A DNA stretch of 60,987 nucleotides, taken from Gracilaria domingensis (taxonomy: Eukaryota; Rhodophyta; Florideophyceae; Gracilariales; Gracilariaceae). Of the stretch, positions 12,032 to 59,820 are shown piece by piece. The position numbers were made by a program, and so were the translations under genes. The notes beneath the pieces are model-generated. The model saw nothing but the letters and a program-made list of their open reading frames with translations. It did not search any database and was not told the origin of the DNA. Location of the stretch: the NCBI GenBank assembly GCA_022539475.1, contig VCMS01000383.1:1-60987 (forward strand). The letters are read 5' to 3'. Position 1 is the first letter of the stretch. Every line of letters begins with the position of its first letter.

Positions 12032-13702
12032 TCATCCACTTCGAGGCGCTCGCAGCCTCATTATTGGCAAATCGTCATCACTACTACTCTCGACCACCTC
12101 GGTTCTACCGGCGTCCGCTTCCACACCAATCTCCACGACCACTTGGTCTTCGTACATGTCAACCGCCCCACCCTCCTTATCGGACAACAGTTCATCCTCC
12201 GCCTCCTCCTCCTCGTCACCATTGACAAACGTGGGTCGGAAATCCCGCACCCGATGAACAGCATCAGGTAGTGCGTAGCCCTCTGGTGCCATGTACATGT
12301 GGTATCTAACCAGCAAATCCATAGACTCGGGACTATCCACCTTGTCCTTCCCACTTGCTCCAGCATGTGTCACATCACCACGGCCCACGAATACAGAGTA
12401 CGGCGGGATGATTATCTTCTTCGCTGGATACACCTCCGACATCACTCGCAACTGTTGGCTGTTCATCCCCACCAGTTGATGGCTTCCAGCGCTCACCCAG
12501 AGAGGAAAGCTCTCTTTCCCAGAGGCCATTACAAAGTATCCGGGGTTACCAGTATTCATTGTTTCCTTCGTAACCAGACCACTGAAGTCGGTGTGCAGCG
12601 TCTGGCGCTTGCACTTTCTCGTCGTACCCAGAAATCGACGACCAGTTTTCGGAGTGTACATCTTCACAGCTTCCCTTTCATTGTCCCATAGTCCCAAAGC
12701 CGCAGCAATTGTACCCATTCGAACATCAAGTAAAGCACGCGACCTTACAACCCACCTGAGCTCCTCATTATCCTCCGGCTTTTCCACCGTACCCCAACGT
12801 GTCGACATCACTCTCCCCTCAAATGGTTCATCGCTACCGTCCTTCCATCCTTCATCATCGTTGATTATTTGAACAAACGACTTCTGTTCCTCCCCTTTCC
12901 GTATATCCGGCATCGCTCCATACTCATTCTCGAAGTCCACCAACTTCCCCGACACATCTCCGAACTCCCGAACTTCTTCCAACTCCTCCCATTTAGGGAC
13001 ACCATTATCCGTAGCAAAGCCATCAAGCACGCAATATCTATTCTGCCTTAGCTCAGCTTGCATTCGGGTGAAGAACATTTGCCCAAATTCGTCATGCTCC
13101 TTCGCAGCAACCCACAGCACCTCTTCATCATCCATACCTGTCGGTCGCGTACGAGGATACTGCATACCAAATTTCTCCGCCCGTAGGCGATGTTCAGCCC
13201 TTGCAGCGTGCCAAAAGACAAGATGGTGTACATCTCTGAGATTCGAGACACTTAGCAGCTCCGACCTATGTCCCTTCGGCAAGTGAATGACTCTGAGCCA
13301 GGGGTCCTTGTGCTCAATTACGTTCTTCCCTTCCCATTCCTGCGGTCTCAGCCTGGCATACCCGCACCATGGTGGGTTCGGTGGGCCATCATATGGGTCA
13401 TCTCGAACAAGTCCGTGCTCCTCAGATTCCGGAAGAGCTGTAGGTAACTCGTCATCAAATGACCCCCCACCTGTCTCTTGCTGATCGTCTGGCGCAGCAT
13501 CTTTCTCGACGGTGACAACCCGTGGAACTGTCACAGAAAGAAGCTCTTCGTCATCCACAAATGCAGAACTGCCTGCGTTCTCTGCATTCGCTCCCTCTCC
13601 CAATGCCACGAACTGAACCTTCATCGACCTTCCTCTCAGCACATGTTCATTTAGTTGAGACATCAGGTCATCCGGTGTCATGCTGTTCAGAGTATATCTC
13701 AT
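12032..13702 (-). CDS. 2-oxoglutarate/Fe(II) dioxygenase-like protein (copy A)
   Basis: 556 residues, uninterrupted. The N-terminal ~120 residues are acidic and probably disordered. The C-terminal half carries the double-stranded beta-helix signature: LHTDFSG (HxD iron ligands, about residue 370), then IPPYSVFVGRGDVTHAG (distal His, about 445) and LVRYHMYM (Arg for 2-oxoglutarate, about 464). An upstream RYCVLDGF motif resembles the start of phytanoyl-CoA dioxygenase-like folds. Such enzymes hydroxylate or demethylate substrates including methylated DNA bases (TET/JBP, AlkB); whether this one acts on DNA is inference from its companions. An acidic tail follows. Its ATG overlaps the stop of the ParB-like ORF (ATGA). 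A diverged, broken copy lies at 46906-47920. Confidence 0.6.
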   Translation of the reverse strand: MRYTLNSMTPDDLMSQLNEHVLRGRSMKVQFVALGEGANAENAGSSAFVDDEELLSVTVPRVVTVEKDAAPDDQQETGGGSFDDELPTALPESEEHGLVRDDPYDGPPNPPWCGYARLRPQEWEGKNVIEHKDPWLRVIHLPKGHRSELLSVSNLRDVHHLVFWHAARAEHRLRAEKFGMQYPRTRPTGMDDEEVLWVAAKEHDEFGQMFFTRMQAELRQNRYCVLDGFATDNGVPKWEELEEVREFGDVSGKLVDFENEYGAMPDIRKGEEQKSFVQIINDDEGWKDGSDEPFEGRVMSTRWGTVEKPEDNEELRWVVRSRALLDVRMGTIAAALGLWDNEREAVKMYTPKTGRRFLGTTRKCKRQTLHTDFSGLVTKETMNTGNPGYFVMASGKESFPLWVSAGSHQLVGMNSQQLRVMSEVYPAKKIIIPPYSVFVGRGDVTHAGASGKDKVDSPESMDLLVRYHMYMAPEGYALPDAVHRVRDFRPTFVNGDEEEEAEDELLSDKEGGAVDMYEDQVVVEIGVEADAGRTEVVESSSDDDLPIMRLRAPRSG

Positions 13703-15941
13703 CTGTTGTGTGAAAGCTTTTTCCGTTTCTTCCTCAGCGGAGCCCGCTGTTCTTCTTCAGAGCTATCCAGAACTTCTATGGCGCTTCGATTTCGGCCGTG
13801 CTCAATTTCCCTATAACTCACCTGCGCCCGTTCTCGTGCACTTCTTCGCGGCTCCTCTTCTTCACTGGCAGATGTTGCAGCAGCAGCAGCGGGATTCCTC
13901 CTATTCGTCACGGACTGCTTCACTGGTGCGGGGGGCGGAATTACCTTGAGCATCGTCCGCAATCGATTCTGAACGGAAGTCGTGGCAGTTCTAATTGAGT
14001 TTGTCCTGCTCCGAACACGCGGCAATGTGTTGAAGTTCACAACTTGTCCCAAAAGAAACTGATACACAGCTGCGTTGTTGTCTGGGTCTTCAACGTCATC
14101 TTCATTGGATGGAGCAGAAAGACTGACTTCGCGTTTCAGGAACACTTCCATGGACTCTTCCTCGTTCAGTTCATTCCTCACTGCTCGAGCCGCGCGGAAC
14201 AGAGACACTGCTCTATCATAAAAGAAACCTCGAATCTCCTCAAAGCTTTTCCATTGCTTTGTCTTCATCGACTTGCCCTTCAATAGAAACATCTGAAGAC
14301 AATCAAGAATGAAGGAAAAATCCTCGGCATCCAAAACATATAGCGGAGTATGGGACAGATGTCTGAGACCTATGTCACTCACATTCTCACATATATCCTC
14401 GAAATGGGCCAGCATTCCCTCACGAGACATGAGTTGCAGGGCGACATTGGCATATCTCAGATACTGACGCTCTTGCACAGTCCCAATCAGTTGGCTCTCC
14501 TTCAACACTTCTGTCACTTCTGCAGGATCCACGTCTGCCGGCGTCACCCCCTCAACATCTTCAATTAGAATGGCGACCACACTAACTATAGAGTGTATCT
14601 TGTCTGCAAACATCATCCTTCGCATGGTACTCGTCGACTCATTGAGGTACGAAGCAACACATAACAATCCCTTCATCCCAATGGGCCTCCCATCTCTTCG
14701 TATCAGCAGATTGCAACGCCAAAACTTGGCTAATCGCTTCGACTTCGGTGCACCAGTCGCTGCCAAATATTGTATAGCTTTCAGACGATGCAAACCATCT
14801 ACAATGAAGCACTTCTTCGTTACGCGTCTCTTGTCAGTATCCCTCTCTCCCGTAGTAGCATCTCGTAAGGCCACCACTAGAGAACCCATCGACTGCAATA
14901 TCTCCCGCTCCTCCATACTCTTCACAAGGGCTTCAACGTGGCGTTTACTTACTCCACGGAGTAAATTGGGCGAAGTGTCCACCAGAGTGATGTCAACAGT
15001 AACAACAACCATCCGGTACTGATTGAGGTTCACCTTTGGTACCTTCTGACGAATTCGTCTGTACTTCTTGCTCCCAGTAGGTGTCCCTTGTATTCCAGAC
15101 CGCTCGCCAGAAACACTTGAACGTGCCATTCTTGCGGACAGAAGCACAACGTCATCGTCCTGCTGCTCCGCAGTTTCTGGTGCAGTTTGGGGTACAGATG
15201 GACCAGCTCCTTGTGCGGATTGCGCATCCGCGTCTGGAAGGGGACCTTTTATGATCTCATCTTCCTCCTCTTGCACAGCCGTCCCCTGCTGAATCGTCTG
15301 TTTCGACGCAGAAGATCCCCTTGTGTCGACGGTCTGATTCATCGCAGGAGATGCCCTTTTCGACGCAGTGGGCTTCGTAGCGGAGGTAGACTTTGTTTGA
15401 CCTGTCCGCTTCGTAGCTGGGGATGCTCTCGTCTCCATAGACCGCTTCGTTACAGACGACGGACCTGGCCGCGGAGGTGCTACTGATGCGCTACCTCTCG
15501 GTGTTGATGAACTTCGAATTGGCTCCGTGCGGCTTGTCGGCGTCATCACCTCACTCATAGCGCTCACCGTTCATCGCTTGGACGCCGGAATGCTGGCTGC
15601 CACCGGTTCCATCATTTTCTCATCCCAAGGAGCGGCCGTCCGGAGATCCTGGAAATATTGTGGAAGATCCAGGCCCTCCGCCCGGTAAGGGTAGAACGTC
15701 TGACCGCTTCGACTGATGAGAATTATGAACCACACAAGACCTGGGTCGAATTGCTTCCCGTGCAACTCGCGGCGTAGAACACTTCCAATTCCATGCAACA
15801 ACGCTTCCCCGACTATCACCTTCCTTCATTCTCAATATCCATCTGCAGAGAAACCCGCATTCCACCTTGCAATAATCGAGTGCTCCGCCGAGTGCGAGGA
15901 GTCACGCTTTGCGTACGCTTTCGAACACGAGTTGGCTTCAT
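13699..15941 (-). pseudogene. ParB/sulfiredoxin-like domain protein with N-terminal module (copy A), nearly intact
   Basis: The main ORF (13699-15567) has a long Ser/Thr/Pro/Lys-rich linker and then a ParB-like domain: VSKRHVEALVKSMEE, followed by IVDGLHRLKAIQYL (about residue 256), the family's G-x-H/R-R-x-x-A-x-x-x-L phosphate-binding motif. A helical region (MMFADKIHSIVSVVAI) and a basic tail (RKKRKKL) follow. Upstream in the same frame, after one TGA at 15571, is a small module (GKQFDPGLVWFIILISRSG, then FYPYR) that also forms the N-terminus of the copy B gene; it begins at an ATG at 15941 and needs one more frameshift near 15830. ParB-fold proteins bind DNA and some hydrolyse NTPs. One broken gene, or a functional ParB ORF on its own. 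Confidence 0.6.
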
Positions 15942-16002
15942 GTTGAACAGCTATTGCAGTGAAAGGTGTATATAACAATACGCTCGCTCTGGACGATACA
16001 AG

Positions 16003-16092
16003 AACGGATGCGAGCCTTTTAAATGGCGACTTAACGCTGGGCACCTCCGCTTCCGGCAGCTCTGCCAAGCGCACTCCAGTCGTCCCGTGTCC
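16003..16092 (-). promoter_or_regulatory. Promoter module 1 (inverted copy of module 2)
   Basis: This ~90-bp block is the near-exact reverse complement of 17643-17734: shared segments include TTTAAATGGCGACTTA, CGCTGGGCACC, CCGCTTCCGGCAGCT (CCGCTTTCGGCAGCT in module 2), GCGCACT and CCCGTGTCC. It sits just upstream of the leftward gene start as module 2 sits upstream of the rightward one, so both arms probably share regulation. Confidence 0.7.
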
Positions 16093-16343
16093 TGATCCAT
16101 TGCCCTCGCACGGCTGATTGTTACGCTAGAGTCGTGGAGTTTCTGCGCAATGATAACCACGCAGGCAATGGTTCGCGCTCTCTAATCATTGCTCTTCAAA
16201 TGCGTTTTGGCATAGTAGTCAAGAGTACACTCATTCACTTCCATGTACAGCCTAACTCCCGCAAATACACGTGGACAGGCGGCCGCCAACGTACCGGAAC
16301 GGCGGGAATGTAGCGAAATCACTGCGGGGCGGCCTGTTTTTGG

Positions 16344-16880
16344 NNNNNNNNNNNNNNNNNNNNNNNNNNNNNNNNNNNNNNNNNNNNNNNNNNNNNNNNN
16401 NNNNNNNNNNNNNNNNNNNNNNNNNNNNNNNNNNNNNNNNNNNNNNNNNNNNNNNNNNNNNNNNNNNNNNNNNNNNNNNNNNNNNNNNNNNNNNNNNNNN
16501 NNNNNNNNNNNNNNNNNNNNNNNNNNNNNNNNNNNNNNNNNNNNNNNNNNNNNNNNNNNNNNNNNNNNNNNNNNNNNNNNNNNNNNNNNNNNNNNNNNNN
16601 NNNNNNNNNNNNNNNNNNNNNNNNNNNNNNNNNNNNNNNNNNNNNNNNNNNNNNNNNNNNNNNNNNNNNNNNNNNNNNNNNNNNNNNNNNNNNNNNNNNN
16701 NNNNNNNNNNNNNNNNNNNNNNNNNNNNNNNNNNNNNNNNNNNNNNNNNNNNNNNNNNNNNNNNNNNNNNNNNNNNNNNNNNNNNNNNNNNNNNNNNNNN
16801 NNNNNNNNNNNNNNNNNNNNNNNNNNNNNNNNNNNNNNNNNNNNNNNNNNNNNNNNNNNNNNNNNNNNNNNNNNNNNNNN
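16344..16880. other. Assembly gap (N bases)
   Basis: Run of undetermined bases immediately beside a foldback element, which probably caused the assembly or sequencing failure. Confidence 0.99.
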
Positions 16881-16909
16881 TTCACTGAGTGACGCCAGTG
16901 GTACAAGAA

Positions 16910-17208
16910 GTGCCGGGAGGAGTGTTTTGGGAGGTCTCCGGAGGGTGTCAAAAAATCGTCCAAAACGTGCCCGCGGGCGGGGGGGGGTCGGTCGTGTTAG
17001 GGTAGGTACCCTAACACGACTGGACCCCCCCGCCCGCGGCACATTTTGGACGATTTTTTGAAAAATGTGCGATTTTATGCCCGCGGGCGGGGGGGTCCGG
17101 TCGTGTTAGGGTAGGTACCCTAACAGGACCGGACCCCCCGGCCCGCGGGCACGTTCTGGTCACATTCCGGCGCCTTCCGGGGACCTCCCAAAACACTCCT
17201 CCCGGCAC
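16910..17208. repeat. GC-rich foldback (MITE-like) element
   Basis: The 26-bp ends starting GTGCCGGGAGGAGTGTTTTG (16910-16935) are perfectly inverted at 17183-17208. Inside are two further hairpins. Each is centred on TGTTAGGGTA-GG-TACCCTAACA (16991-17020 and about 17105-17126) and flanked by G-runs and their C-run complements. The block TTTTGGACGATTTTTTG is also inverted (about 16950-16970 and 17043-17061). No coding capacity. It may be an inserted miniature element or part of the control region of the giant transposon. Confidence 0.8.
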
Positions 17209-17591
17209 CCCAGGCAAAACTCGTTAAGGGAAAGCTAAAAGGGTTTTCAGTAGACTTGCAGACAAGATGACTGGTGTAGTAAGGTAATATGACCAACGTC
17301 ATTGAAAAATAAGTAAGTTTTTCTTTCACTGACATTTCCATGAGTGTGATTTTCTGAAAAATTAAATTCCTCGAAAGTGCCCTTATATTTTATTGAAAGA
17401 CATCAATTTCATTTACCGCCGCATGATGATTCAATGACAATGGGTTTTGCTAGGGCACTTCCGGCAGTGATTTCGCTGCACACGCCGTGCACATATATCA
17501 AACTAGAGAAAACTAGCGCTTCACACCCACTTGATCCGCGACTTTTAGCACAATACGGGACCGTTGCAATAGCTCCGAATCGCGACGTGGC

Positions 17592-17633
17592 CGACACGCG
17601 ACGCTATCGCTCCGACACGCGACGCTATCGCTC
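17592..17633. repeat. Two tandem 21-bp units near promoter module 2
   Basis: CGACACGCGACGCTATCGCTC occurs at 17592 and again at 17613 (the unit is 21 bp; first 20 bases: CGACACGCGACGCTATCGCT). Possible operator-like repeats beside the rightward promoter. Confidence 0.8.
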
Positions 17634-17642
17634 CGAGCGGAC

Positions 17643-17734
17643 ACGGACACGGGCGAGACTGGCAGTGCGCTGGGAGGAGCTGCCGAAAGCGGGGGTGCCC
17701 AGCGTAAGTCGCCATTTAAAGGCTCGCCTCCGTT
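17643..17734 (+). promoter_or_regulatory. Promoter module 2 (inverted copy of module 1)
   Basis: Reverse complement of 16003-16092 with few differences. It ends about 15 bases before the ATG of the rightward methyltransferase gene. Confidence 0.7.
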
Positions 17735-17749
17735 GTTTGCGCTGAAGCG

Positions 17750-19920
17750 ATGGATTCCACCGATGTTGGAGAGGAGATACATCCTATCGACATGAGTGCT
17801 CCGCCTCCGGCGTTCCATGCATATGTCAGACTTTTCTTGGTTCTTCGCGATGCTTTGGCAAACAGCGATGGAGGCCCTGATCGGCCACGGGACGTGGGGT
17901 TTAGAGGGTTAATAGAGTTCTGCGCCGAGAACTATAAGGATATTCCGGAGGCAAGGAAGATGTTTGAGGAGGCCACTAACTCCAAGAACCTGCAGACCTT
18001 GACACTGCAACAGCTGCGAAAGAGTGTTGTGAATAACAAACCTGTGGAACAACGATATCTTGTAACGAAGCTTCTTGACAAGAAGGACGGGGATGAGGAC
18101 CAGAGACTGCGCGATTTTTTCCTTCTCTCTATGGATATGGGTATATACCTACCGGTGCGATGCCTGGTTGGTTATTTCATGACCATTAGAAAGCAGGTTC
18201 TGAAGACGACAGTGTTCATCCCACCATCAGCTGTGAACCCATTTGAGGTCGTTATATACTTATCATACCTCGGCCACATAATGGGAGAGAACGACAACAT
18301 CCGAATGATGAAGAAGAAACAACCGAAAAAGAAACGAAAAGTGAACCATGCACCATCTGTGTACATACCCACTTTTACGTCGTTCTCCAAAGACAACTGT
18401 GATCGACTGGGATTCGCTATCAGTGAGGTCGTATGGGCATGGAGTTGTTTTGCGGCTCATCTTGGATACACGAACGTTCAGCACATGGTGAAACCATACA
18501 TTTACATGAATATGCAGACGTTGAAGTATACAGCGCTAGAGACACGGGAGTCTGGTTATGCCCCGCCGAGCCAGAGTACTCGATTCAACACAAAGGATGT
18601 GCCACAGAGCAGTACTAGTGAAAATCGGTGGAGACCTTGAGTGATGAATGCGATACAAACCTGCGAATACTGGCTAAGGAGGTTTTGACAGACCTCGAAA
18701 CCATATGCACCCACGATAGCCTCTATAGCTTACGGGCTGATCAGATGAGGAACTGGATAGAGTTTTCGGAGATACGGATGGATACCGTATCTAGCTCTGA
18801 CTCCGGTGAGTTGCCTGCTCGATTTCAGAAGTTTTCGGAGTTGCTATGGAAACCGATACAGGATATGCGTCATGCGGCAGGGTTCCATGTCGGCATTTAC
18901 GCGAAACCTGATATTGAACTGACGAAAACCCCTAAAACTTCCGGTAATGCCGAACCCTCTTCGACCAAGTCTGCCCCACCTCCACCTCGTCGAGAGTATA
19001 TGAACCTCGTGAGCTCCGATAGCGACGAGTTCGAGAAGCCGGTGAATCTTGCGGAGCATGAATCTCGGGTTGCCGGTTACAACATCCAAAAGACTGGTAT
19101 TGAGCCGCCCATGAAGGGGATATCCAGTCTCCTTCGAATGAATATGGACAAGGTGTGGAAGGGGATGAGAAAGTCACACTTTGTAGCGTACAACTGTGAC
19201 ATGACGGACCTGAGGCACACACACGAAACGTTTGTGAATCAGAGTGAGATTTTATGGGCTGAGGCACAGCCTGTCCTAACAGACCCTCCCTTTAACACTC
19301 GAAGGAAGAGGAACAAACGGAATAGTGGTCACGATGTCTTCAGTGAGGAAGACATGACCCGTACGGCTGACTTTATAAGTTCCGCGCTTCGGTCAGGTGG
19401 GCACTTCATTATATTCTGTGCCATGGCACAGTTTCATGTGTGGCACAGGATACTTTCGGAAACGGCGAGTAGGAAAGATGAAGCTGGAAGCGAAGGTAAA
19501 CCAGAACTCATGCCTTCGTTTAAAGTGGATGCGAATCCACTGGTGTTCATCCGGGATCGCAGTAATGTTGGAGGGAATCCACGGAAGTTTGGGATACAGC
19601 CCGTAACGGAGTACGCCGTTCATGGGGTGAAGCGTGGATTGCGACCAGTCGCAATCCGTCAATCCGTGCGCAAGCCAGTCTTACTCCATTTGAGGAGAAC
19701 AATTTCATTCCTTCTACTTTCCCGGCTAACAGGAATGTAATTGACCGGGTGCCAAAACCCAGAGCGGGGGAGTGGTTGACATGGAAGGTACATGAGCCAG
19801 GTAGTTCAGTACTAGGTGGGCAGTACATAAGACCGGAGTAGAAGTCGAGGGAGTTGATGAAGGAGTTGATATGTCGCTTCACAAGACCGGGTGATCTTGT
19901 CATGGACATGTTCGCGGGAA
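17750..19920 (+). pseudogene. Permuted DNA amino-methyltransferase (N6A/N4C-like), copy A
   Basis: Spans ~720 codons in pieces. ORF 17750-18640 is an N-terminal region of unknown function with a basic patch (KKKQPKKKRK). A one-base shift near 18630 leads to 18628-19740, whose start (LSDECDTNLRILAKEV) matches the copy B gene. Catalytic motif IV is intact as LTDPPFN (19282-19293), followed by LRSGGHFIIFC (motif VIII-like region). After a frameshift near 19625 the sequence continues to a degenerate AdoMet motif I, DMFAGTF (19902-19919), preceded by an in-frame TAG at about 19841 where copy B has Gln. The order IV then I marks the beta class of DNA N6-adenine/N4-cytosine methyltransferases. The C-terminus after motif I is missing, apparently deleted. 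Confidence 0.6.
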
Positions 19921-20742
19921 CTTTTTCGAGGGATAACTATTTCTGCTTCTGGGGTACGATCTGATTTGGAGAAGAACAAGCTGGTAGAAGAGAATGCTGA
20001 CGAACTCACAATGCAGTTGAAGGAAGCGCAGGAGAACATACTGCGTCTTGACGAAAATGGTGTACCGAACACTTCATGGTGGAGAAAAGCCCCATTTGTT
20101 CGTCTAAAGTACTCCAATGCGGACAATGTCGAGGATATGCCGACGGAAGATCAAGACTTGTTCTTCCGAAACCGTGTCGGGGTACAAGTGCTGAAGGAGT
20201 TTATTGGGTATGATGTGGAAGACAAGGATACGGGCACCTTTTTAGATGGCACAATACTGTTGCTCGCACGTTTGGACGCTTGGGTGTTGACGGTTGTGAG
20301 CCTTCTAAGTACGGATGTGTCAAGGGGTGGCCAGAGACAGAAACTGTTTACAAAGAAGTTTGCCGAACTGCTACCTCTGTGTTTAAAGAATGTTCTGGGG
20401 GATGTTAGGCAACGTGTCTTGAGGACCAATTCCAGCGAGTTTCATAATTTTGGAACGACAACGGAAGATTGGACTAAAGTTCTTGGTAATGACATGAGAG
20501 AGGCTACATTTGGATATCGAATGCCGTCGAACGGAAGACTTTACCTCACTGTGAAAGAACAATTTTTTATTGACAGTGTGAGCCAAAGATTGGGGTCTAT
20601 TAGCGATTGCTTCGTTGGTGAATGCGAGGATGGGGATCTGGAGTTCAAGGAAATGGACATGAACGATTTCGGAAGTAACACAGGATCACAAGAAAAGGCA
20701 CCACAAGGTGAACATGTAGAGGATGGAGCCCTTAATGTTTAA
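19921..20742 (+). CDS. Gene C, C-terminal part (copy A), unknown function
   Basis: ORF open from 19891. From about residue 12 it matches the C-terminal third of the larger gene at 54064-56566: LFFRNRVGVQVLKEFIGYDV here, LLFRNVLSLQFLQKFLGYDV there; also RLYLTVKEQFF and KLYLAVREDIL. I recognise no domain; the N-terminal part (LEKNKLVEENADELTMQL) is predicted coiled coil. Its beginning is fused directly to the broken methyltransferase, so the SET-like ORF and N-terminal two thirds seen in copy B were probably lost by deletion. Its stop overlaps the transposase stop by a few bases, tail to tail. Confidence 0.5.
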   Translation, partial: LFRGITISASGVRSDLEKNKLVEENADELTMQLKEAQENILRLDENGVPNTSWWRKAPFVRLKYSNADNVEDMPTEDQDLFFRNRVGVQVLKEFIGYDVEDKDTGTFLDGTILLLARLDAWVLTVVSLLSTDVSRGGQRQKLFTKKFAELLPLCLKNVLGDVRQRVLRTNSSEFHNFGTTTEDWTKVLGNDMREATFGYRMPSNGRLYLTVKEQFFIDSVSQRLGSISDCFVGECEDGDLEFKEMDMNDFGSNTGSQEKAPQGEHVEDGALNV

Positions 20743-23700
20743 GGCTGTACAAGATCAACGTGCTCAGTTGGTCCTTCGTCTGAATCATGATAGAATCGAT
20801 TGATGTAGAATCGGTGTTGAAACCATTGAAGTGGAGGACAAAAAGGTGGAGCAGCGTAGTTTGATCGAACAACATGGAAAGTTCCCTGTAGTGCAGAAGC
20901 CGGAACCATCCCGTACCAAGGAGTTAACTCTACGATAGTCTCCGCTTTGGAATGACGAGGGAACGGAAGAGTGTGGTTCTTTTCATCGTTTGTAGCCCAC
21001 CGTAAAGATATGCATTTCAATATGTGGTCGATGTTTGTTGCGGGGGGTAAAACCTCGAAATACCGGACGAATGCCACCTCTGGTGCGGTAAGTGCAGAAT
21101 CAAGGAGAGATATTCGAATCAGAGCGACTACCTGGGCAACCCAAGTCTCTGAATCTTCTCCGCTTACCAATACAGTGGAAAACTTTGGCTTTCTACTGGG
21201 ACCAAATGCTGGAGAAGCGAAGACACGTTGGATGATGGGGTATTTGGGTCGTCCCAGCTTAAGTGCCTTAGAAGACGAATCGAAGTGTTCAAGAGTCGGA
21301 ACGAAACCGCCTTTCACGAGGGCCGAATTCACCAGAGTTATCCTTGTCTTTTCTGGGAAGTATGTAATAGAGTGCTCATCCAGTGTTTCTTTCACGAGAC
21401 TGAGGAAAGGAGGAAGGGCCTGTTCACCAATTTGATCAAGAATCGACCTTGTGTCCCTACTTGAGAACATCTCTCTAACAGCAGTCCATGTTTTTGAACT
21501 GGACATACTTGAAACACAATGTTGAAGAGCTCGTAAAGTGAAAGAACGCCCTCTCGTTGCAAACCGAGGAAGCTGTGTGGAAGTTCCTGGTAAACCTGGA
21601 TTACGCTGGTAAAGAGTATTGCCATTCCATTGCTTTCTAACATGTCCGTGCTCAATGGAGCGAATAGTCTCCTCCACAGCCGTTGCTGTTCTTCTGGACG
21701 TCTTTTTTTAGTGTCTCTTAAATAGCAGGTGTGCATGTTCGTATATGCCTGCGTCGTAGTACTTGATACTTTCCAGACGGCGAATATCGTCCACGAGATG
21801 ATCGAGAAGATGAAACTTCAGAGTTCCCAGTCTGGAGGGATGAAAATCCGCCAGAGTCTTTGTTGCGGAACGCTTGAAGGCTTCAATCTCCGAACTAAGA
21901 CACAGGAGAGAGCTTTCAGTCCAATACGGGTCACGATTTTATCTGAATAAGGTCGAGAGCAAGTCCGAGTACTGAGAGAAAACGGTTGTGATTGGGGCAA
22001 CGTCCTGTTCTCCACAGCATATGTCAAAGAATGCTCCTATGAAGGGAAAGACCATGTCAAGTGCTTTGTAGTTTTTGGCCTCCAGCATTCCACGGAGACC
22101 GTCTTTCGTGAAGATACCATTCAAAGATTTGCCTTTCTCCTGCGTGGAGAAATCGATATGTAAACCTTTGGCAGGAGAATCGCGTTCTATGGCAGCTAGA
22201 ATTGCGTTTGCATGGTTGAGAAGTTAGGTGCGTATCGTTCGAAATGAACGCGATGCAGATGTTCCTATTGTGGTGCACAGGGTGTCTGACTGCAGTCTCT
22301 CGATTGTGGCCGTTTTTATCAACTTTGAGATGCCGAGATGCAAGTTGTGTAATGGTTCGAATGAGAACAGACTGTATGGAGACAATCCCGGGATCATTCC
22401 AAGGCTTACGGAAGTTTCGAGGAACGAAGGAATGAGAGATATGGAATTTGAACGCATCAGAGTATCCGCTTGAGATCTCCTCTCCCTCGCACGACGTGGA
22501 CGTCTTTCCGCCTCGTCTTTTTGTGCATGTTGCAAGATAGCTGTGTATGTCTTTCGGATGCTTTTCGTGTGCTTTTGAGAACGTCCGTTGAATGAGGTGG
22601 GAATAGGACTGCATAAAGATGAGCGAGGGGCTTTGCATCTATGGCACGGGCTTTCCGTTTTGGTCCAATGAAGAATGGACAGAATGTCCTTAGCCTCAGG
22701 AATATGCGCACAATAACTTGCAAGCAGAGGATGGCACACTCGACTTAGTTTGTCTTCGCCGATGAACTGAAAACCTTTCTGCGTGAGATTTAGAATGGGC
22801 TCCAGGACTTGACGAAGAGATTCTTGAAGGATTTGCATCCTGGACTCGCGTAGAGACTTGCTAGAAACAAATGGCATTGCGTCTGCTTCAGATGCGGAAA
22901 CCTCGATCAGTGTGGTAGGGAAGTATGCCACTACTGTGAGGTCATCACGGATACACTTACGGCGAAGCTCGTCGGAGAAGTTGAGAAATATGAGGTGAAG
23001 AGGATAGGCGGTAACCGATGTTTGCTTTAGAGTTGTTGAAGACTTATCGGTGTATACCTGCAGAAGACCTACGAAAGATTCACTGTAACTTATTTCTTGG
23101 GAGTACCACACTATTCTAATATCCAAAGAGCCCATGACCATTTCCTTAAGTTTTGAGGTGGCGTCTCTTGCGAGAGAGGCGGACATGGGGTGAGATATTT
23201 TCGTGGAGTGGGTCTGAGGTATAGGGTGGAAGAATGTGTTTTCGTTGTTAGCCAACTGGAGCTGTTTCACAAGTGTCTGAACGGGGTCTCTCGTGTAGAG
23301 GGTGGCGCTGAACTTACATCCTTCTGGCGAGACAGTTCTGCGATTGAAACCGTCCTTTGAGGCGTATCGTTCGAAAATGGCGTTCTTCAGTTCTGTACAG
23401 CGCTTGGAACTTGTTATGGTCTCGTTGAATCGCTTTTGCGAGAATCGCGGGTCCCGAAGTAGCCCAATTAGCTCGTCCGCCTCACGATGACCAAGGTTGG
23501 AAGCTACTGAAGCCAGACAAACCGTGAGATAATCCATATGCAAATCACCGAGGGTCTCCTCAGAAGGCACTGGGCGGGAACTGCTTCCGTGTTCTCGCTC
23601 TAATGACGCGGGACCCGGGGAAGGAGAAACACAATGCGAAGTGTCCGGAATGGGAGGGGCGCACGGAGTGGGGTCGACGATGTCCTCGGACACTGGAGGC

Positions 23701-25500: not shown

Positions 25501-25542
25501 AATGACTTTTGATGCGGAGGTAGCTCACGAGTTGCAGGTGCA

Positions 25543-29890: not shown

Positions 29891-29899
29891 TTTTTTGAT

Positions 29900-31123: not shown

Positions 31124-31141
31124 TCAGCAAAGTACATTGCC

Positions 31142-47920: not shown

Positions 47921-47927
47921 CAGCAGG

Positions 47928-50418: not shown

Positions 50419-51215
50419 ACTCGTCTCCGGATTTTTGCTCCCTCACTGCTCTTCTTCCCTTTTTCTTTTTTCTTCTTCGCACTTCGAAGATTCGGCGCCA
50501 TGGGGTTCCGAACTTTACGCGGCTTTCGGGAGCGTCTCATCTGCCGGCTCCCCGATCTTCTTGGCTCCGTTATATAGCTTATTTGAATTTAGCTTCGTCC
50601 AGCACCTATAAAGCTTGAATGCAGAACAAAGCGGTAATCGTATAATGCTCTGATCACGTCAGCAAACGGCACACCCGCTCGGTTTAAACACGGTACACGT
50701 TTCGCTATCGGTTAAAGTGTCGCACCCGTTCGCATCGCAGGTTTGTAGTGCAGCTCTCGAAAATGCTCGCGCGAACATTCACGTCACCTTGAAAGAGTTG
50801 TATAAACAGTTAGAGAGGTTTAGAAGGCATAGATGAATACTATGCAGCATGAGCAACCCTCACGGTTTCCGCCTGGTACACTCTGGGGTGGCCGGATGTG
50901 ACGTGTTCAGACCGCGATCTGGACCGCGGTCAGCGCTCTGAACACGTCGCATCCGGCCATAAGGGGGGTCACTACTAGACGTGATTCTACACAAGTCTGC
51001 GTACTACACCCGCTCTTGCAAACCTGTTCACACACTCCTGCGTACGACTAACACCCGCTCAAATACGAATTTAGAATAACGTTTCATCACCACCGTCTAC
51101 TACGCTTCTCGAGAACTCCTCTAGCGAGATTCATCGCCACCGTCTATTCTGCGAGAAAACGACGCTTTCTATCGGCACAATTGAGTCCTGTTCTTCCGGA
51201 TACAGCCCAGCTTCG
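50419..51215. promoter_or_regulatory. Divergent intergenic region of copy B
   Basis: Non-coding spacer between the two arms, like 15942-17749 in copy A. It contains a large palindrome and repeated ACACCCGCTC/GCACCCGTTC motifs (about 50670, 50727, 51007, 51051) that could be binding sites. Confidence 0.5.
50889..50959. repeat. 71-bp palindrome in the copy B divergent region
   Basis: TGGCCGGATG-T-GACGTGTTCAGA and its reverse complement flank a centre that itself pairs (GACCGCG with CGCGGTC). It occupies the position of the foldback element in copy A but shares no obvious sequence with it. Confidence 0.8.
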
Positions 51216-52796
51216 ATGTTCAAAACATTGGGGATCGAAATGAAGCCAACCACAGAGGTCAACGCTACTGTGACTTGGGTTCACACACTTTCGGATGATA
51301 TCGATACCAAACTAAGGGATTTGTCAAAAGAGTTCCTGTCCGATTTGAACAAGGTGGTATTAAACGGATTTCTGTACAAAACGTGCGCTAATACCAAGTG
51401 GGAACTGCTTGAAGACTTTTGAAAGAAACTTCGGACTCGGTTTCCATCTTGTTTTGATGCTTTCTTCGATGAGTATTTGGGTACTCTTCGTACGGCTATT
51501 GTCCAGCTGCACCTGAGACCTTCCCAGCAGCCATCCCGGGCCACTCTGTCAGGACGTCGAGAAGGAAGCAACACGGTCACGGTGAAGATTGAGGATACGG
51601 TTATGGTACAGAGAACCATTTCCTCCAGGCCAAGGGCTAGGGCGGTGGGTAAAACATCCAGTAAAACATCCGGTGCAGACCCGGGTCCAGTGAATGTCAT
51701 TGTCATTGACGACATGGATGGTGACGATGATGGAGCGCACCTTCTTTCTAATGTTCCTGATGGCATTCTTCCACCTCACGACTTTGGCGATGCAAGGACG
51801 ACGAAGGCTCTCAGTGTGGTCAAAAAGAACATGGAGCAACAGTTCTGTATGCATTACGTTTGTTATGAAGAGTTAGCGGATGCTTATGCTACACAATTCC
51901 CCTCCGATATTTCTCTAGAGGGCAATGTTCAACTCATACTCCCATATTCACCTTATGGTATACGCGACAGTGAGCATGATGAGCTCCTCGACGAAGATAT
52001 GGTTAATACTGCGGAAATGATGGCCGCAATGCTTCGCCCTGGCGGTAATTTTACAATGTTCTGTACTATCGAACAGTTCGCGGACTGGGAGGAGATTCTA
52101 CCTGAGCACCAATCGGAGAATGCAGTCGGGAGGCAAAGTGCTTCGTTCTTAGTCGACCCTACACCGATGCAATTCGTTCGCTCTCGTACTCACACTTTGA
52201 AGAACCCCGGAAGGAACACAACACCGTTGTTCTCTGCAACCGGGTATGCCGTGCACGGAGTCCGAAATGGAAACGCGTACGAGGAGCAGCAGGTGATGGT
52301 GAACTACAAAAATTTCAACTACGTTCCCACGCAGTACCCCCGGCATTACTCCATTATCGTTCAGGTTCCGCATCTGGATGCGGGTGAAGGACTCCGTTGG
52401 AGGGTAAAGAAGCGTTCCAAAATACACTCCGTTCAGGTTCGCCCCGAACAGAAACCGAGGGCACTGCTAAAGGAACTCATTGCCAGGTTCTCAAATCCAG
52501 GAAACGGTGTGGTTGATCCCTATAGTGGAATATTTTCCGGTGCCTCGGCGTGCAAGGACAAGGAAGAGCCCCAACGCTTCATTGTATTTGAGAGGGATGA
52601 GCAGTGCTTCGATCATGCTGAACGCAATGCTGTAGTGATGTGTGCGAGGAGGGTTTGGCGTAACGAGCTCAACGCAAGAATAACTGTCGGTAATGAGGTC
52701 GTTGAAGCCTCTTATTTAGTACAGACAAAGTTCCCATATGGGAAGCAAAGAACCTCGCTCACATGGACCGCACCGAAAGGATTCTCGCCATACTAA
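51216..52796 (+). pseudogene. Permuted DNA amino-methyltransferase-like (copy B)
   Basis: One frame from 51216 with a single in-frame TGA at about 51420. The C-terminal half carries AdoMet and family motifs: LRPGGNFTMFC (motif VIII region), RPEQKPRALLKELI and VVDPYSGIFSGASAC (motif I, 52514-52550), then IVFERDEQCF. Motif IV is degenerate: the site aligned with DPPF of copy A reads PYSPYG, so transfer activity is doubtful here. The copy A N-terminal region (17750-18600) has no counterpart upstream. The arrangement IV-VIII-I is that of beta-class N6A/N4C DNA methyltransferases. Confidence 0.65.
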
Positions 52797-52965
52797 TGTT
52801 TCCCGTTCCTTATCAATTCTTACATCGCAACTTTTTCCAGGAGAACCCAGTCTTATCGCTCAGCACAAGGAGAAACCGGTGCACGAGTAACCTCTGAATC
52901 TCCAAGGCACATTGGAGACGATGGATGTACGGATTTTGCTCGCCGTTGAAGCAGCAGATTAATGG

Positions 52966-53514
52966 TTGTACAGGAAGAAATCAAATATCAAACACCCCAT
53001 AAGTGGAGATGGAGTGTTCAGTAGTAGATCGTTCTCGGAAGGAAAAGTTGTTGGGTACTTCTATGGGACATTGGTACATCACGACATAAGACGACGCAAT
53101 GTAACACAGATCAAATACGGAAGCGGAGTGCTCGGTGCTACCGCTTCCCGTTTCAGGAGGTACTGCATGGAAGAGAAGCTGAAAAGGCAGATGTACAGCA
53201 CGCGTCCCCACTATGATTCCAAAATCAATACTGCGATTGCCTGGGTAGTACCCGCTCCTTTCTGTATAGCGAGCTATAAAAATGATGGTTCGTATCGGGA
53301 TGGGGACGAAGAGAAAATTTTGAACGAGATGGAGCCTTACCAAGGACGCTTACCAAACTTTAGTATTCGACAGCCCTCCAAGCATCAAACTACCACATTG
53401 GGTACACTCGAAAGCTATAGACTACTGTTGGTGACGGCTACAAGAGATATTCATGAACACGACGAACTGTACGTACACTATGGACCCAGCTATCCATGGA
53501 AGAGGTATTTGTAA
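52966..53514 (+). CDS. SET-domain-like protein or exon
   Basis: 182 codons without an ATG at the start; the frame opens right after a stop, and TTGTACAG just inside it resembles a 3' splice site. This may therefore be a second exon, or the N-terminus is lost. The ends of a SET fold are clear: GDGVFSSRSFSEGKVVGYFYG (split here as GDGVFSSRSF and VVGYFYG) and a C-terminal TRDIHEHDELYVHYGPSYPW. The central NHxC-type motif is not obvious (LPNFS is at the expected place). SET enzymes methylate lysines, mostly on histones. It lies 170 bases after the methyltransferase. No counterpart in copy A. Confidence 0.55.
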   Translation: MYRKKSNIKHPISGDGVFSSRSFSEGKVVGYFYGTLVHHDIRRRNVTQIKYGSGVLGATASRFRRYCMEEKLKRQMYSTRPHYDSKINTAIAWVVPAPFCIASYKNDGSYRDGDEEKILNEMEPYQGRLPNFSIRQPSKHQTTTLGTLESYRLLLVTATRDIHEHDELYVHYGPSYPWKRYL

Positions 53515-54063: not shown

Positions 54064-56566
54064 ATGGCTCCACAAAACTCCAGCAACGCGGACGACTGGG
54101 AGACGAAGAGATCCCAAACAACCCGGCGATATGGTATTGGCGTCACTAAGCGCAAGAACCTACCGCCTGCCGGGACCCGGAGAAGTTCTCGACGACGAGC
54201 TCCCCCTGTCGGGCTTACCAGAAAGAAGTCTGGTTCGAATTCAGCACTCCGGGATTCGAAGGCAAAACCGAAACCGAAGCTGGGTGTTAGTACGACCACA
54301 ACGGAAGTGACAGAGAGCTAAGTAGTGTTATCACATCACAGCTCAGTGAGAGGGCCGGTTACACGACAAGTGGCTGCAGAGGAAGTGCCAAGAATCATCG
54401 ATGGTGCGAGTGTGGAAGAAAGAGTTGCCGAGACACGTACGAGAGCGAAAGGAACACGCGCAAGAAATTTGAGAAACAATGTCATCGAAGAAGAGTTGAA
54501 CAGACATAAAAGAGCAATCTTACCTGGTAGGAGGAAGCGCATTATAAACTATTCCATGCAACCTTTACGTAGTAGATACGAAGAAGAAGCCGATGATATA
54601 CAGCCCGCTGTACGTGCGCTCGCAACATCGCGAAGGGAGATCAAAAATCGGAACGATTCCCTTTATGCCGATCGTGCTAGTGACGAGGAACAAGTCGACA
54701 ATATACAGTCCTCTGTACCTGCGCCCGCACCGTCGAGGAAGAGTTTTCGATTTCATTCATCCCGAACGTCGTACGCACGAAGAAGAAGTGGACGAGGTAC
54801 AGCATCCTCTATGTACGGCGTACCATCGCAGAAAAGGTTAAACCAAATGAGAAGGAACGGTTAGACCTCGATTTCTTTTGGCGAGATTCGTAGGGAACGG
54901 GCAGAGGTGGTGTCGTAATTACCAAGAGAGGCATAGAGCGGAAGGTGTCGTAATGTGGGAGGTCGCCGGAAAATTAACCGTACGCTTCCATCTCGTGCTT
55001 TTGCTGGTGTAGACGAAGAAGGTGAAGAAGATGAAAGCCGAATGCCACGCTGCGAGCTGTTGGAGAAGATTGGAGACTTGAAAGCGGATCTCTTTCAAGT
55101 AACAGAGGATAATCAAAGTCTGAAGATTAGAGTAAAAATAGCCCAGAAAAGCGTAACGGAACTAGAGCTAAAGGTGAAGGAGCAAGATGTTCTAATATAA
55201 TGACTTCGAGAGGCACTGAAGCAAGGAGCACCACGGGGGGAGCGTGATTCGCACAGGGGAAGTAAAAGATACGAGATTGATGTGAATGAAGTTTATTTAG
55301 CGGTAGCCAAGACAGTATACGAGTCCATACTGCGATACGCGAAAGAAGAGACAAAGGAATTGTGCTTCGAGATGAGTTCAGCGGCGAGAAACTGGGAAAC
55401 TCGAAGTGAGACACTCGGGCCTGAGACTGAGTACAGTGTCCCGGTCGTTGACGGGAAAGAGATTGTTTTACGCTGTCCAATGGAGGTCGCGATGGAGATG
55501 AGAGCATATATTCCATCGATTCGTGGTACAACTCATAACGTGCTGATGCAAATCGTGGAGACGGAGGTAATGAAACCTCGTTGGGAACCCATCCGGGAGA
55601 TGAAGATGGAAGAAGAATGCATCAGACAGCTGGCCAGCGACATGTGCTTACGGAAGAAGTTGAAGCAGGCCTTAAGCGATGCGGTGGGGGTTCGAAACGC
55701 CATGCGAAGGAAAAGTTGTTGATGGGGCTAGGGAATGACATGTTGGTGAAGACAACATCTCATGAGAGGGTGAGGAGCATATAACTAAAACAAGTGGAGG
55801 AACTATGGGAGAAGCTTCTGCCGCTAAATGCAAAAGGGTGTGAGATTCTCTCCATATTCAAAACATCCGAAAGAGAGTACATATCATTTTCCGGGTTCAA
55901 AATGCGTTGCGAAGAGAACAAGCCCCAAGACTTGCTGTTTAGAAACGTTCTAAGCCTACAGTTTTTACAGAAATTTCTGGGTTACGATGTAAACCAAAAG
56001 GATTCGAGAAATGCGGGAGACAAGGACCCAGCGGAGCTCTGAATAGTGCAGTTGACCCGTTTAAACCCTTGGATCGCGTCAGTTGTTCGAGCTACACAGT
56101 TTGAAGGAGGCCGGGGGGTAAAAGGCAGGTGTTGTTTTCCAACCTATCCAGAAATTATGTTGCACAGGCGTTGGAAAGTGTACTGATGGCTGTGCGAATG
56201 AAAATGAAGCAGAAGTTTGAAACGGAGTTCAGGAACGACTCAATGGCTCAACACCCGCTCCATGGAAATGATGACCATTTGGGAACTGTGGCATGCTAGA
56301 TACCGTCTAAGAAGAAACTATATCTAGCTGTTCGAGAAGATATATTAATGGAAGAGATTACGGAACATCTTGGAGCCGTATTTGATTGCTATATTGGGTA
56401 TTGTGACCCAAAGAATCGCGTATACTCCCCTATAAGAGCAATGGATGAAATCCGAGAAAATAGTATGATCGATTGCAATCCGAATGTCCGGGAACGGAGT
56501 AATAAACGAGACGGGGGAGGCGTGGACGATGAGCACGAGATAGAAGACGAGGAGGACAATATCTAA
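54064..56566 (+). pseudogene. Gene C (copy B), unknown function, many stops
   Basis: A single frame runs from ATG 54064 to 55722, broken only by stops (TAA 54319, TAG 54862, two more near 54916-54930, TAA-TGA at 55198). It then shifts to 55794-56042 and 56348-56566. The N-terminal part is basic (RRSSRRRAPP) with three imperfect repeats of a DDIQPAVRALATSRR-like unit (54590-54830). A coiled coil follows (LEKIGDLKADLF, KVKEQDVLI), then a helical segment (VYLAVAKTVYESILRYA). The C-terminal third matches copy A 19921-20742. No enzymatic motif seen; possibly a structural or DNA-binding partner of the transposase. Confidence 0.45.
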
Positions 56567-56594
56567 AGTACATGAACAGTTTATGTTAAGAATG

Positions 56595-59500
56595 TTACGT
56601 AGTAAGAGTATGATAAACGTGGGCTCGAGGGTTACGATAGAATCTGTTAATGTAGAAACGATGGAATTGCCAGTGAAGGGGAGGGAGAAATGGTCGCGCA
56701 GGGTAGTTTTGGCGAATGACGTGTATGGAACCTTTGATTGAGGAGAACGGGATAAGCCCGAACCAAGGAGAGACAGGAGCAGAACGAGGTTTCATTGTTG
56801 ACGTACTTGGATCCAAGGTGTGATCATGCTCGTCATTGGTAGCTCAACGGAGTAATATACAATTCAGAGTTTCATCAACGTTATCCAAGGGTTCTCTCAC
56901 TTCGAAGAAACGAACAAAAGCGAGCTACGATTCAGAGTTGTCTAAGTTCTTGTCCCTGAAGCGAAGCAATGCAAATACTTTGCATACCCACGCTGTGGAC
57001 GACCTAAAGTTGGGAGGGGGTGTTCCGTGCCCGAGAACTGTGGAGAACGTGGGCAACTTGGAAGGTCCGAAGGACGTCGTAGCGAAGATGCGTTCACATA
57101 GTTGTACATTGGGCTTCCTCAGTCTTATGCATCGAAGATCCCGATCTTAATCATCGAGAGAAGGGCAGAAGCCGCTGAGAACGTATGCAGAATTAACTAC
57201 AGTGAGTTTGATGTCGTGACGATTCTTCAGCTGTTGAATGGTTTTTACACAAAGGGTGCGGAAGGAGGTGAGAGCGTCGCGAGATATTTGGTTGATGAGC
57301 TGCAGTTTGGTTGTCGAGAAAAGTTCTGCCACAGCCGAAGAAGATACATGTGGATGCGATCGTAGGTACTTGTCAGCTGTGATGATGTCAAAGAATGAGA
57401 AGGAGTTACCGTCGCGAACCAAGGCCCGAAAGCGGTTGATGGAAGCGCTTCGAGAGTTGGAGCAGACACAGATGTGACTTCTGACCGAGACATATTGCAA
57501 GTAGTCCTGCGACTCTTGAATGGCGTTCACCGTTTCCTTACGAGCTTTAGTTCGCCCTCGAAATGTTCGAAAATAGTAGTTTTTGTGGAGAGAAGATGAG
57601 CATAGTCCCACAGGCCTGCATCGCCACAGTGCAGGCCTCTGTATCGCCGTATGTCTGGAATGATTTGGTCAGGAAGGTGGAAATTGAAAGTAGGAAAGTT
57701 GGAGCTTGGTACGGGCCGAAAATGGAGACTGTGTGAGACTTGAAGTTCTTGAAAATAGTTTCCAATACATCTAAGAAATGCTACGTCCATTCTGGAGTGG
57801 TATTGTAGCGACGACGCCGTTGACGAGGTCAACGTAGGATGTGAGCATGGTGGTGATAGAGGCGGAGGATTCCGCACCACAAAAGCGGTCAAAGAAAGCG
57901 CCAATGAAAGGGAAGACCACATCAAGGGAACGGTAGTCCTTCGCTTCCCACATACCTCTGATGCCGCCTGTCGTGAAGAGACCGTTGAGAGAATTTTCTT
58001 TTTCGGATGTGAGGAAGTCGATGTGAAGTCCGGATGCCGGATAGGAGAGCTCAATGTGGGCGAAAATGGCGTTGGCGTGGCTTAGAATAGAAGTTCTAAC
58101 GGTCTTGAAAGACCTCGAGTTACCCTGAGAACCATCAGAAATGTAAAGCGAATCGGACTTGAGGCGTTCCATTGAGGCGAGTTTGATGAGTTTGGAGATT
58201 CAGCGATGAAAGTTGTGAAGGGGATGGAAGGAGAAGATTGAGTAAGGAGTCAGCAGTTAGGAGACATTGAGCGTAGGGAATGATTCGAGAAAGGACTTGT
58301 AAGTGGATAAGGATGTGGTTTGGAGTAGTTCAACAGCTTTATTTTTAGGGCCCTTGCCACCTGAAGTCTGCGGAAGAACAGAGCCTGTTCAGTGCCGGCA
58401 AGTAGATCTTGGTGTTTCTTTCTCATTGCTGAGTTGTGGGATACGGTTCGCTCATTGAGGATGCGTTGATAGATGTTGAGTTGCGAACGAGGGGTTAAGC
58501 ATTTATGATAGGCCTTGTTTGGTTTTGTGCCATGGAGGACAGCGAGAATGTCCTTTGCTTCGGAAATTTCAGTGCTATAGTTAGCGATGATGGGATGACA
58601 CTGACGAATGACTCCCTTGGCGTCTCTGAAGGGGAAGCCTTTTTCGCATATGTCGTAGAGAGAGTTTAGGATTGTTTCCAAGGACTTCTGGACGAGCTCC
58701 ATGCGCACAACGCGAGTTATGTTCGAGAACAAGGGACCACTTTCCAAAGAGTCGGTGTCGGTGGAGGAAGATTCGGAGGAGAAGGATTTGAAGGAAGTGG
58801 GAATGTAGCCTACGAGAGTGTGGTGGTGTGTGATACATTTTCTGCGGAAAGAGTGCTTGAAGTTAAGAAACGTAATATGGAGGGGGAATGATGTGACAGA
58901 AGAGCTTTTTAGCGTGGTGAAGGACTTATCGCAGTAGAGTTGAAACATGTCGATGAAAGAGTCTATACCAGTAGTGGTGGGATCATGCCAGATGACTCCT
59001 GGGTTTGGAGAATGTACGATGTGCTTTTTGAGAGCGGGGTCTTCATGTGCGAATTTGGAGGCTATAGAATGCATGAAAGCGTCAGTTCCAGTGCGGGTGG
59101 CGTGTTGAATTGTGTGAAAGATGGCGTTCTCGTGGGATGCTAGCCGAAGTTGTTGTTGAGGGACTTGAATGGGGTCCTTGAGATAGAGGGAGGCAGAGAA
59201 CTGACGGCCGTTGTCGTGAATGGCGGTAAGGTGAACCCTATGAAGCTCACGGCCTCTTCAAAGATTTTGGAGTGCAGCTTGAGACATTCAGAAGCGGAGG
59301 TGATGGAGGTTTCGAAAAGAGAGGGTGGAAAGTTGGACTGCCTGAGAATGTTGATAAGCTCGTCAGCGGAGCGCTTTCCGAGTTTCGTGGCGATGGAGGA
59401 AATGTATGTGACGAGATTGTGAATGTTATCAATTGAAGCGGGCGGAGAGAGTGCATGACCGGATCCTACGAAGAGGGACTGAGAATTGAACGGGGGTTGT

Positions 59501-59820
59501 GGTGTAGCTAGATGTGCTGCGTCAGAAGAACGTATGGAGAGAGCGAGCTGCTGTTATTTATACGGTTCGTAAGTGGCGAGTGCTACATTATCGGAGGGGC
59601 GGTTGGAGGGAGAAGAGAGAGGGACTTTGTTACTGCTGAGTCGGCAACGTTTCGTTCGGGGGGAAGAGGGAACCGCGGGGGTCTGCAGGAGTGAGAAAAG
59701 GGTTTGCGTCGTGCAGATGAGTGCAACGTTTCTGATGTTGCGCGAGAGAGGCGATAGAGCCTGTGTGAAAGACATAGCGGGGGAAGCAAGAGATTTACAT
59801 GATGCAGTAGGGAGGGGAGG
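56595..59820 (-). pseudogene. Plavaka-type transposase (copy B), broken
   Basis: Collinear with copy A. The N-terminal finger remnant reads YCIM-stop-ISCFP, ending SLAQHQKRC (about 59730-59815). Then KLGKRSADELINILRQ (about 59350-59400), ORF 58250-59074 (LYCDKSFTTLKSSSV, FPLHITFLNF, LVGYIPTSF, KDILAVLHGTKPNKAYHKC), TPYSIFSFHPLHNFH with a TGA in place of Gly (about 58200), ORF 57771-58172 (KDYRSLDVVFPFIGAFFD) and the C-terminus HRFYINRFYR (56595-56816). Multiple frame changes and stops make it inactive. It converges with gene C, as in copy A. Confidence 0.7.

Follow-up and report, generated by a model that had tools for sequence, protein, structure and literature searches.

Contig VCMS01000383.1 of the red alga Gracilaria domingensis (C383:1-60987; all 60,987 nucleotides are referred to as the window, and w marks a window position) carries a giant Plavaka transposon, element A, which is confirmed as one member of a high-copy family whose cargo travels with the element across the genome. 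Intact copies contain two unusual fusion genes, predicted to encode a ParB-like domain joined to an oxygenase and a DNA methyltransferase joined to a SET domain, and a Plavaka with this pair of enzymes is what appears to be new here. The first-pass annotation of the window had described a giant Plavaka carrying 2-oxoglutarate (2OG) oxygenase-like, ParB-like, permuted DNA amino-methyltransferase and SET functions as travelling cargo, which our analysis bears out, and had treated the cassette as four separate genes, which proved to be two in intact copies (one fused in locus L036, the other in L049 and L057). The structure of the element is well supported; its function is inferred. The main features of element A are:

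5644..26106, no strand assigned: element A, giant Plavaka transposon, 20.5 kb in the window
5644..5650, plus strand: left terminal inverted repeat CGTCTGT, from direct reading of the copies' ends
12035..13756, minus strand: 2OG-Fe(II)-oxygenase-like domain, C-terminal half of its fusion, frameshifted off in the window copy
13702..15570, minus strand: ParB-like domain with a DGxHR motif, N-terminal half of the same fusion
15571..17749, no strand assigned: shared divergent upstream region between the two fusion genes, with a large palindrome (w16910-17208) and a run of N (16344-16880)
17750..19935, plus strand: methyltransferase-SET gene with its N-terminal domain, DPPF motif IV and the start of motif I, cut at 19935; intact frames in L049 and L057
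19936..20739, plus strand: gene C, 3' part, no family
20742..24041, minus strand: Plavaka transposase (PF18759, E=9.9e-18, over cut-off)
26100..26106, minus strand: right terminal inverted repeat ACAGACG, an end common to w26106, w4384 and C182:104832

The assembly comprises 77,892,253 bases in 680 contigs. Our searches of this genome score the best candidates only (for the oxygenase, 76 of 759), and all genomic copy counts are therefore lower bounds that are biased to close copies. Within this scope there are at least 76 matches to the oxygenase, 71 to the ParB-like domain, 110 to the methyltransferase, 143 to gene C and 101 to a Rossmann-like gene located further left in the element, together with at least 123 scored matches to the Plavaka transposase; the listed matches other than those to the transposase are 84-98% identical to the window query, the window itself excepted.

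Co-travel of these components was assessed by converting 664 matches (six lists plus 40 left ends) to inferred element starts, with a tolerance of 3.5 kb and a constant correction of 2,950 bases for the part deleted in the window copy (see below). This resulted in 94 clusters of two components, 34 of three, ten of four, three of five and two of six, alongside 307 singles. Three or more components in the expected order and orientation were found in 49 clusters, whereas 100 runs in which orientations were randomised gave 10.4 such clusters on average and never more than 16; one of the 49 is the window itself, which fits by construction. Linkage to at least one other component was evident for 58/76 oxygenase, 54/71 ParB-like, 72/110 methyltransferase, 72/143 gene C and 36/101 Rossmann-like matches, and for 24 of the 40 left ends. 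Unlinked matches were not counted as negatives, given that their partners may fall beyond the matches listed or beyond contig ends. A Plavaka transposase consistently found without such neighbours would have spoken against the cargo, and 41 of the 123 scored transposase matches have a cassette component in register. When oxygenase loci were fetched, 23 of 30, the window included, aligned to the window as one block, and in a first, stricter pairwise test 20 of the 76 oxygenase matches were linked to the Rossmann-like gene.

The first of the two fusions is disrupted in the window, where a frameshift separates the ParB-like half from the oxygenase. In L036 both halves lie in one frame (1066 residues in the fetched piece, part of a 1266-residue open frame), and stop-free open frames of 1308 residues are listed for both halves on contigs C81 and C296. 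We tentatively place the oxygenase in the Fe(II)/2OG type on its catalytic motif pattern: in four of five sequences compared, an HxD is followed by a GxGxxxH-type distal histidine at +70-76 and an arginine 16-27 residues further on, the fifth (P0007) ending early. The HxD is kept in 30/30 genomic loci and in the homologues P0005-P0008, and HTD, distal histidine and arginine are all retained in 28 of the 30. These loci, like the 30 methyltransferase loci discussed below, are the 30 best-scoring of at least 76 oxygenase and at least 110 methyltransferase matches respectively, with the window included in each set.

The analogy to TET/JBP dioxygenases drawn in the first-pass annotation found no support. 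Pfam searches at E<=10, Tet_JBP included, gave no match for the L036 oxygenase, P0005, P0006 or P0008 and unrelated families only for P0007 and P0009, while a search of PDB with the oxygenase profile returned three unrelated matches, all at E>=0.6. PE-type TETs, carried by Plavaka among other elements, have an HxE iron motif as their hallmark (PMC12730594); because the oxygenase of element A has HxD and not the PE-type HxE, it falls outside that type and we do not claim TET/JBP membership. For the ParB-like half, the DGxHR motif, a match to phrog_3264 (E=0.0015) and a GmrSD_N match below its cut-off (0.065) point weakly to the ParB/Srx group; the L036 region has no Pfam match at E<=1.

The second fusion is a single protein of 1045 amino acids in both L049 and L057. 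In L049 it matches PF01555 (3.5e-15) and PF00856 (1.4e-7), both above the Pfam cut-off, and PF00856 is also matched by the homologues P0001 (7.8e-6) and P0002 (1.9e-6), identifying the C-terminal domain as SET. PF01555 together with a DPP(F/Y) motif that precedes motif I, a permuted order, places the methyltransferase in the beta class of N6-adenine/N4-cytosine DNA methyltransferases. It matches the phage DNA methyltransferase profile phrog_67 at 3.5e-23, and its nearest PDB sequences are DpnA (4e-8) and CcrM (2e-6); the best PDB match of the SET domain, KMT2A, is not significant (E=0.13). Among the 30 methyltransferase loci DPPF is present in 30, FAGTFS in 29 and the SET motif in 24, with methyltransferase and SET in one uninterrupted frame in five, within the DNA fetched. 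In the window copy the methyltransferase breaks off at w19935 and sequence of the gene C region follows directly, with loss of the methyltransferase C-terminus and SET. Contig C163 holds SET (in L048) as well as gene C, the latter about 4.1 kb from the methyltransferase, and C359 shows the same spacing; the window copy therefore carries a deletion, and the idea that gene C and SET are alternatives at one position is ruled out by C163, which has both. Fused frames are thus found in L036, C81, C296, L049 and L057, with stops in many other copies. Of the proteins named in the first-pass annotation, profile searches supported the methyltransferase, SET and Plavaka, matched ParB weakly and gave no match for the oxygenase.

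The two fusion genes diverge from a shared upstream region containing a palindrome of about 300 bases with GGTCGTGTTAGGGTA..TACCCTAAC sites, two of them in the window. Of the 30 methyltransferase loci, 20 contain one or more of these sites, several of the other ten (e.g., L039, that of the window) stopping short of the region; the sites are present in 0/38 other loci, which do not cover it. As single-stranded DNA the palindrome folds at -159 kcal/mol, compared with -64.1 in 100 shuffles (z=-24.6). It could be a candidate nucleation site for the ParB-like protein, or equally a fold-back element that became fixed in the family.

The element also extends further to the left than had been annotated. 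A start at 12032 had been proposed; the true start is at 5644. A DNA search with w4385-8600 returned 44 rows, consisting of the window, contig C22, 38 other copies, three continuation pieces and one short match. All 38 other copies begin at query positions 1247-1282, 34 of them at 1257-1260 (w5641-5644), and the boundary is sharp, with CGTCTGT following unrelated flanks in 12/12 copies (11 read directly, plus the window). One further copy, C182:104832-128805, spans 23,974 bp and has the six listed components in order. Plavaka elements are reported to generate target duplications of 2-3 bp and to end in TGT..ACA (PlavakaA) or CATCA..TGATG (PlavakaB) (PMC12730594). The CGTCTGT..ACAGACG termini of element A are not of the PlavakaB form and are compatible with a CG duplication as well as with an outer CG that belongs to the repeat; the outer CG may be either. 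By eye, no target duplication beyond CG was seen in C182, where the flanks outside CG..CG do not match; CG is thus the one visible candidate for its duplication, if there is a visible one at all.

Two observations concern the ends. The C22 copy (C22:709594-713809) is 100% identical to the entire query w4385-8600, across the flank and the left part of the element, unlike its oxygenase region, which is just 96% identical to the window; this contrast would fit recombination or gene conversion among copies, or a chimera of copies made in assembly. Near the right end, element A has a subterminal direct duplication (w24610-25506, offset 375 bases, copies 96% alike), and a related duplicated pair lies at 3046-3765 in the left neighbour element.

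The right half of the window contains a second set of the same modules, copy B:

46880..49521, minus strand: ParB-oxygenase relic with stops, 30-36% identity over the longer matches
51144..53499, plus strand: methyltransferase (motif IV degenerate) and SET relic (PF01555, 1.5e-7)
55791..56407, plus strand: gene C relic, tblastn match to A
56616..59801, minus strand: Plavaka transposase relic (PF18759, 5.1e-13, over cut-off)

Comparison of the reading frames of A with this region by tblastn recovered all five components, ordered and oriented as in A: oxygenase (36%, 5e-33), ParB-like (30%, 5e-27), methyltransferase (27%, 1e-21), gene C (31%, 1e-18) and transposase (1e-72, with 36-60% identity along the longer stretches). 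Protein identity is mostly 27-41%, and at the DNA level a blastn comparison of A and B (E<=0.01) returned nothing, in agreement with the first-pass observation of one ordered gene set in two very divergent versions. That annotation had regarded them as two copies of one element; the shared core stands, and A and B belong to two divergent families. Copy B has many stops and frame changes, its SET remnants lie at 52903-53499, and nothing right of w26500 matches the Rossmann-like and HAD genes of element A at an E-value under 0.97. On its predicted proteins, copy B is a decayed distant relative that keeps the same core and comes from a family divergent from A. Loci L001-L008, which share about 71-72% DNA identity with the transposase of copy B, form a second high-copy Plavaka family, some copies having open frames of 1110 residues.

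To look for selection, copy A was compared with one intact copy per gene, skipping stop and gapped codons. The proportions of synonymous (pS) and nonsynonymous (pN) sites changed were 0.021 and 0.011 for the methyltransferase (window against L057) and 0.034 and 0.019 for ParB-oxygenase (window against L036). With both genes pooled, 35 of 1209 synonymous and 65 of 4137 nonsynonymous sites had changed (Fisher p=0.005).

Proteins related to the two fusions exist elsewhere. P0001 (1015 amino acids) is a methyltransferase-SET fusion of the same kind, 41% identical over 97% of the query, with PF01555 at 9.9e-19, and P0005 (1174 amino acids) is a corresponding fusion of ParB-like domain and oxygenase (45% over 41%). 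P0002 (1278 amino acids) combines a ParB-like motif, a methyltransferase-like region lacking DPPY and SET, and is possibly an undivided form of the cassette. A second, profile-based homologue search added just P0008 and P0009. The transposon proteins P0003 and P0004 are misleadingly annotated as 'mediator of RNA polymerase II transcription subunit 15-like' and 'cell-wall-anchored protein SasA'. The methyltransferase domain matches 96 phage records, all below 60% identity (24-29% over 80-89% for the ten listed), and the phage amino-methyltransferases of phrog_67 are of the same class as that of element A, but belong to bacterial viruses. A viral origin found no support in IMG/VR, where, with the methyltransferase-SET and oxygenase profiles, 0/96 and 0/39 pattern matches encode a relative.

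Part of this architecture is already known, namely algal transposons with ParB and DNA methyltransferase, including the idea of self-marking, and TET-bearing fungal Plavaka, and the novelty initially claimed for the combination was accordingly too strong. Petroll et al., in the abstract of a 2025 paper, are said to place giant Plavaka elements behind genome expansion in Bostrychia. The giant EnSpm and, reportedly, Plavaka elements of that alga likewise reside in a florideophyte red alga and carry several accessory genes. For red algae, giant EnSpm elements with accessory genes are described in PMC12477816. The same source reports Sola1-1_Ec32 of the brown alga Ectocarpus, a 21.5 kb element encoding a ParB-like and N4C/N6A methyltransferase protein of 1104 amino acids, notes similar proteins in transposons of green and red algae (citing Iyer 2011, Petroll 2025) and suggests that such proteins bind and modify their own transposon (PMC12477816). 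Like element A, Sola1-1_Ec32 is a DNA transposon with ParB-like and methyltransferase functions, in its case coded on the strand opposite the transposase; it differs in belonging to another transposase superfamily and in having ParB and methyltransferase in one protein (PMC12477816), whereas the ParB-like domain of element A is fused to the oxygenase and not to the methyltransferase. Neither 'dioxygenase' nor 'SET domain' appears as a term in the body of PMC12477816. Fungal TET+ Plavaka elements (PlavakaB) likewise combine a Plavaka transposase with a carried Fe/2OG-type dioxygenase, but have CATCA..TGATG termini and a PE-type HxE oxygenase whose similarity to TET was found by structure comparison (PMC12730594); the main text of that paper does not contain the term 'ParB'. 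Transposon-borne SET histone methyltransferases are found in HarbingerS/MuDR elements as well, with no fusion to a DNA methyltransferase mentioned there (PMC12730594), and giant repeats flanked by Plavaka transposase have been described in Amoebidium (PMC11244446). A description of both fusions was not found in the literature searched, which had most subscription papers beyond its reach.

Of the possible roles for this cargo, self-marking or anti-silencing would, by inference from the domains, fit best. We give roughly even chances to a giant cut-and-paste Plavaka family that carries its own chromatin-rewriting pair, by which its copies would be kept expressible or distinguishable as self. The ParB-like domain would load on element DNA, with candidate nucleation at the palindromes between the divergent genes, and bring along the oxygenase, which would erase or alter host-placed marks; the methyltransferase-SET protein would methylate both bases and histones of those copies, and the net effect would be copies that are expressible, or recognisable as self, in host chromatin. 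The presence of the core modules in the distant family B also counts for this reading. Its strongest form, which we regard as possible but doubtful, would be a complete portable epigenetic system, in which a base eraser loaded through ParB and one writer protein coupling DNA adenine/N4-cytosine and histone methylation, nucleated at divergent-promoter palindromes, enable more than 100 giant copies to hold their own chromatin state against the host.

Several observations weigh against chromatin rewriting by the pair. The oxygenase domain has no profile match in Pfam, NCBIfam or PDB; profile support for the ParB-like domain consists of one weak PHROG match (phrog_3264), and hhalign found no significant similarity between it and the ParB-bearing P0002 (probability 1%, E=0.052). 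Seven of the 30 oxygenase loci are broken off or rearranged relative to the window, many genomic cassette copies contain stops, and the stricter pairwise test, on five lists, linked the oxygenase to ParB in 25 of 76 cases, to the methyltransferase in 22 and to Plavaka in ten. The median pairwise ratio of nonsynonymous to synonymous rates (dN/dS) across the 30 oxygenase loci is 0.59 (48 of 435 pairs having at least eight synonymous changes) and that of the window against the other loci is 0.62, from which much of the oxygenase variation is attributed to relaxed decay. Together, the pooled excess of synonymous change and these ratios fit a past constraint that has been diluted by decay after insertion.

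The same decay is part of the case for passenger cargo, in which the transposase would spread chance acquisitions that have no role for the element: many copies contain stops, and the HAD hydrolase and Rossmann-like genes look metabolic and, at E-values under 0.97, are matched nowhere in the copy B half. Against this, the same four modules recur in families A and B despite their great divergence, foreign homologues show these fusions too, and synonymous change is in excess (p=0.005); we give it a small probability. The pair could also serve self-restraint, with the methyltransferase-SET protein silencing sibling copies as copy-number control and ParB-oxygenase lifting the silencing for the active copy. 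Divergent transcription of the writer and eraser candidates from one region suits such a switch, and the copy number is very high, but the sign of the marks is not indicated by the present data and we consider this unlikely.

Two further explanations narrow the role of the individual domains. Amino-methylated element ends could steer the transposase to newly replicated DNA and so set the timing or strand choice of transposition, for which Dam and Tn10 provide the model; that one element carries both the transposase and a DpnA/CcrM-like amino-methyltransferase suits this, but SET and the oxygenase would be left unexplained, and we assign it very little probability. Also improbable, and compatible with the other readings, is that SET and the oxygenase act on non-chromatin proteins or RNA, the methyltransferase alone acting on DNA. 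The lack of a TET/JBP match speaks for it, and the GSH and GxGDxxHxG pattern occurs in phytanoyl-CoA-type oxygenases too, while fusion of the oxygenase to a ParB-like domain speaks against it. Should the pair work as its domains suggest, in line with chromatin rewriting, the transposon would possess a reader, an eraser and a dual DNA/histone writer in two proteins, and the role of N6-methyladenine and N4-methylcytosine (6mA/4mC) in eukaryotes, as well as transposon escape from silencing, would become directly testable in a seaweed. G. domingensis offers many natural copies, intact and broken, for such tests; learning what the fusion enzymes do would mean learning how a transposon handles host silencing marks, and the element may help explain the inflation of red algal genomes by giant Plavaka.

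The remaining features of element A and its left flank are:

128..4384, no strand assigned: right end of another, more diverged family A copy, a direct repeat of 21860-26106 (78-94%)
6115..7140, minus strand: open frame of 342 amino acids, no family, within the repeated unit
8055..9299, plus strand: open frame of 415 amino acids with a GxGxxG Rossmann-like motif, 86 of its listed genomic matches being without stops
9731..10798, plus strand: HAD-IIB/Cof-type hydrolase (PF08282, E=6.9e-10, above cut-off; TIGR01484, 4.5e-9, below its cut-off)

The frame at 8055..9299 may be ketopantoate-reductase-like, with no hidden Markov model support. A scan of the window found no Rfam families or tRNA genes. 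Just right of element A, w26527-27999 is a tandem array of diverged units of about 92 bases with many inverted GCTGTGAGCACAGGC motifs. It is followed by a Harbinger-type transposase at w29855-31120 (PF13359, 4.1e-19) and, at w32051-32968, by an open frame that is Tc1/mariner- or pogo-like by appearance and whose match to HTH_23 is weak (E=0.0079, below cut-off).

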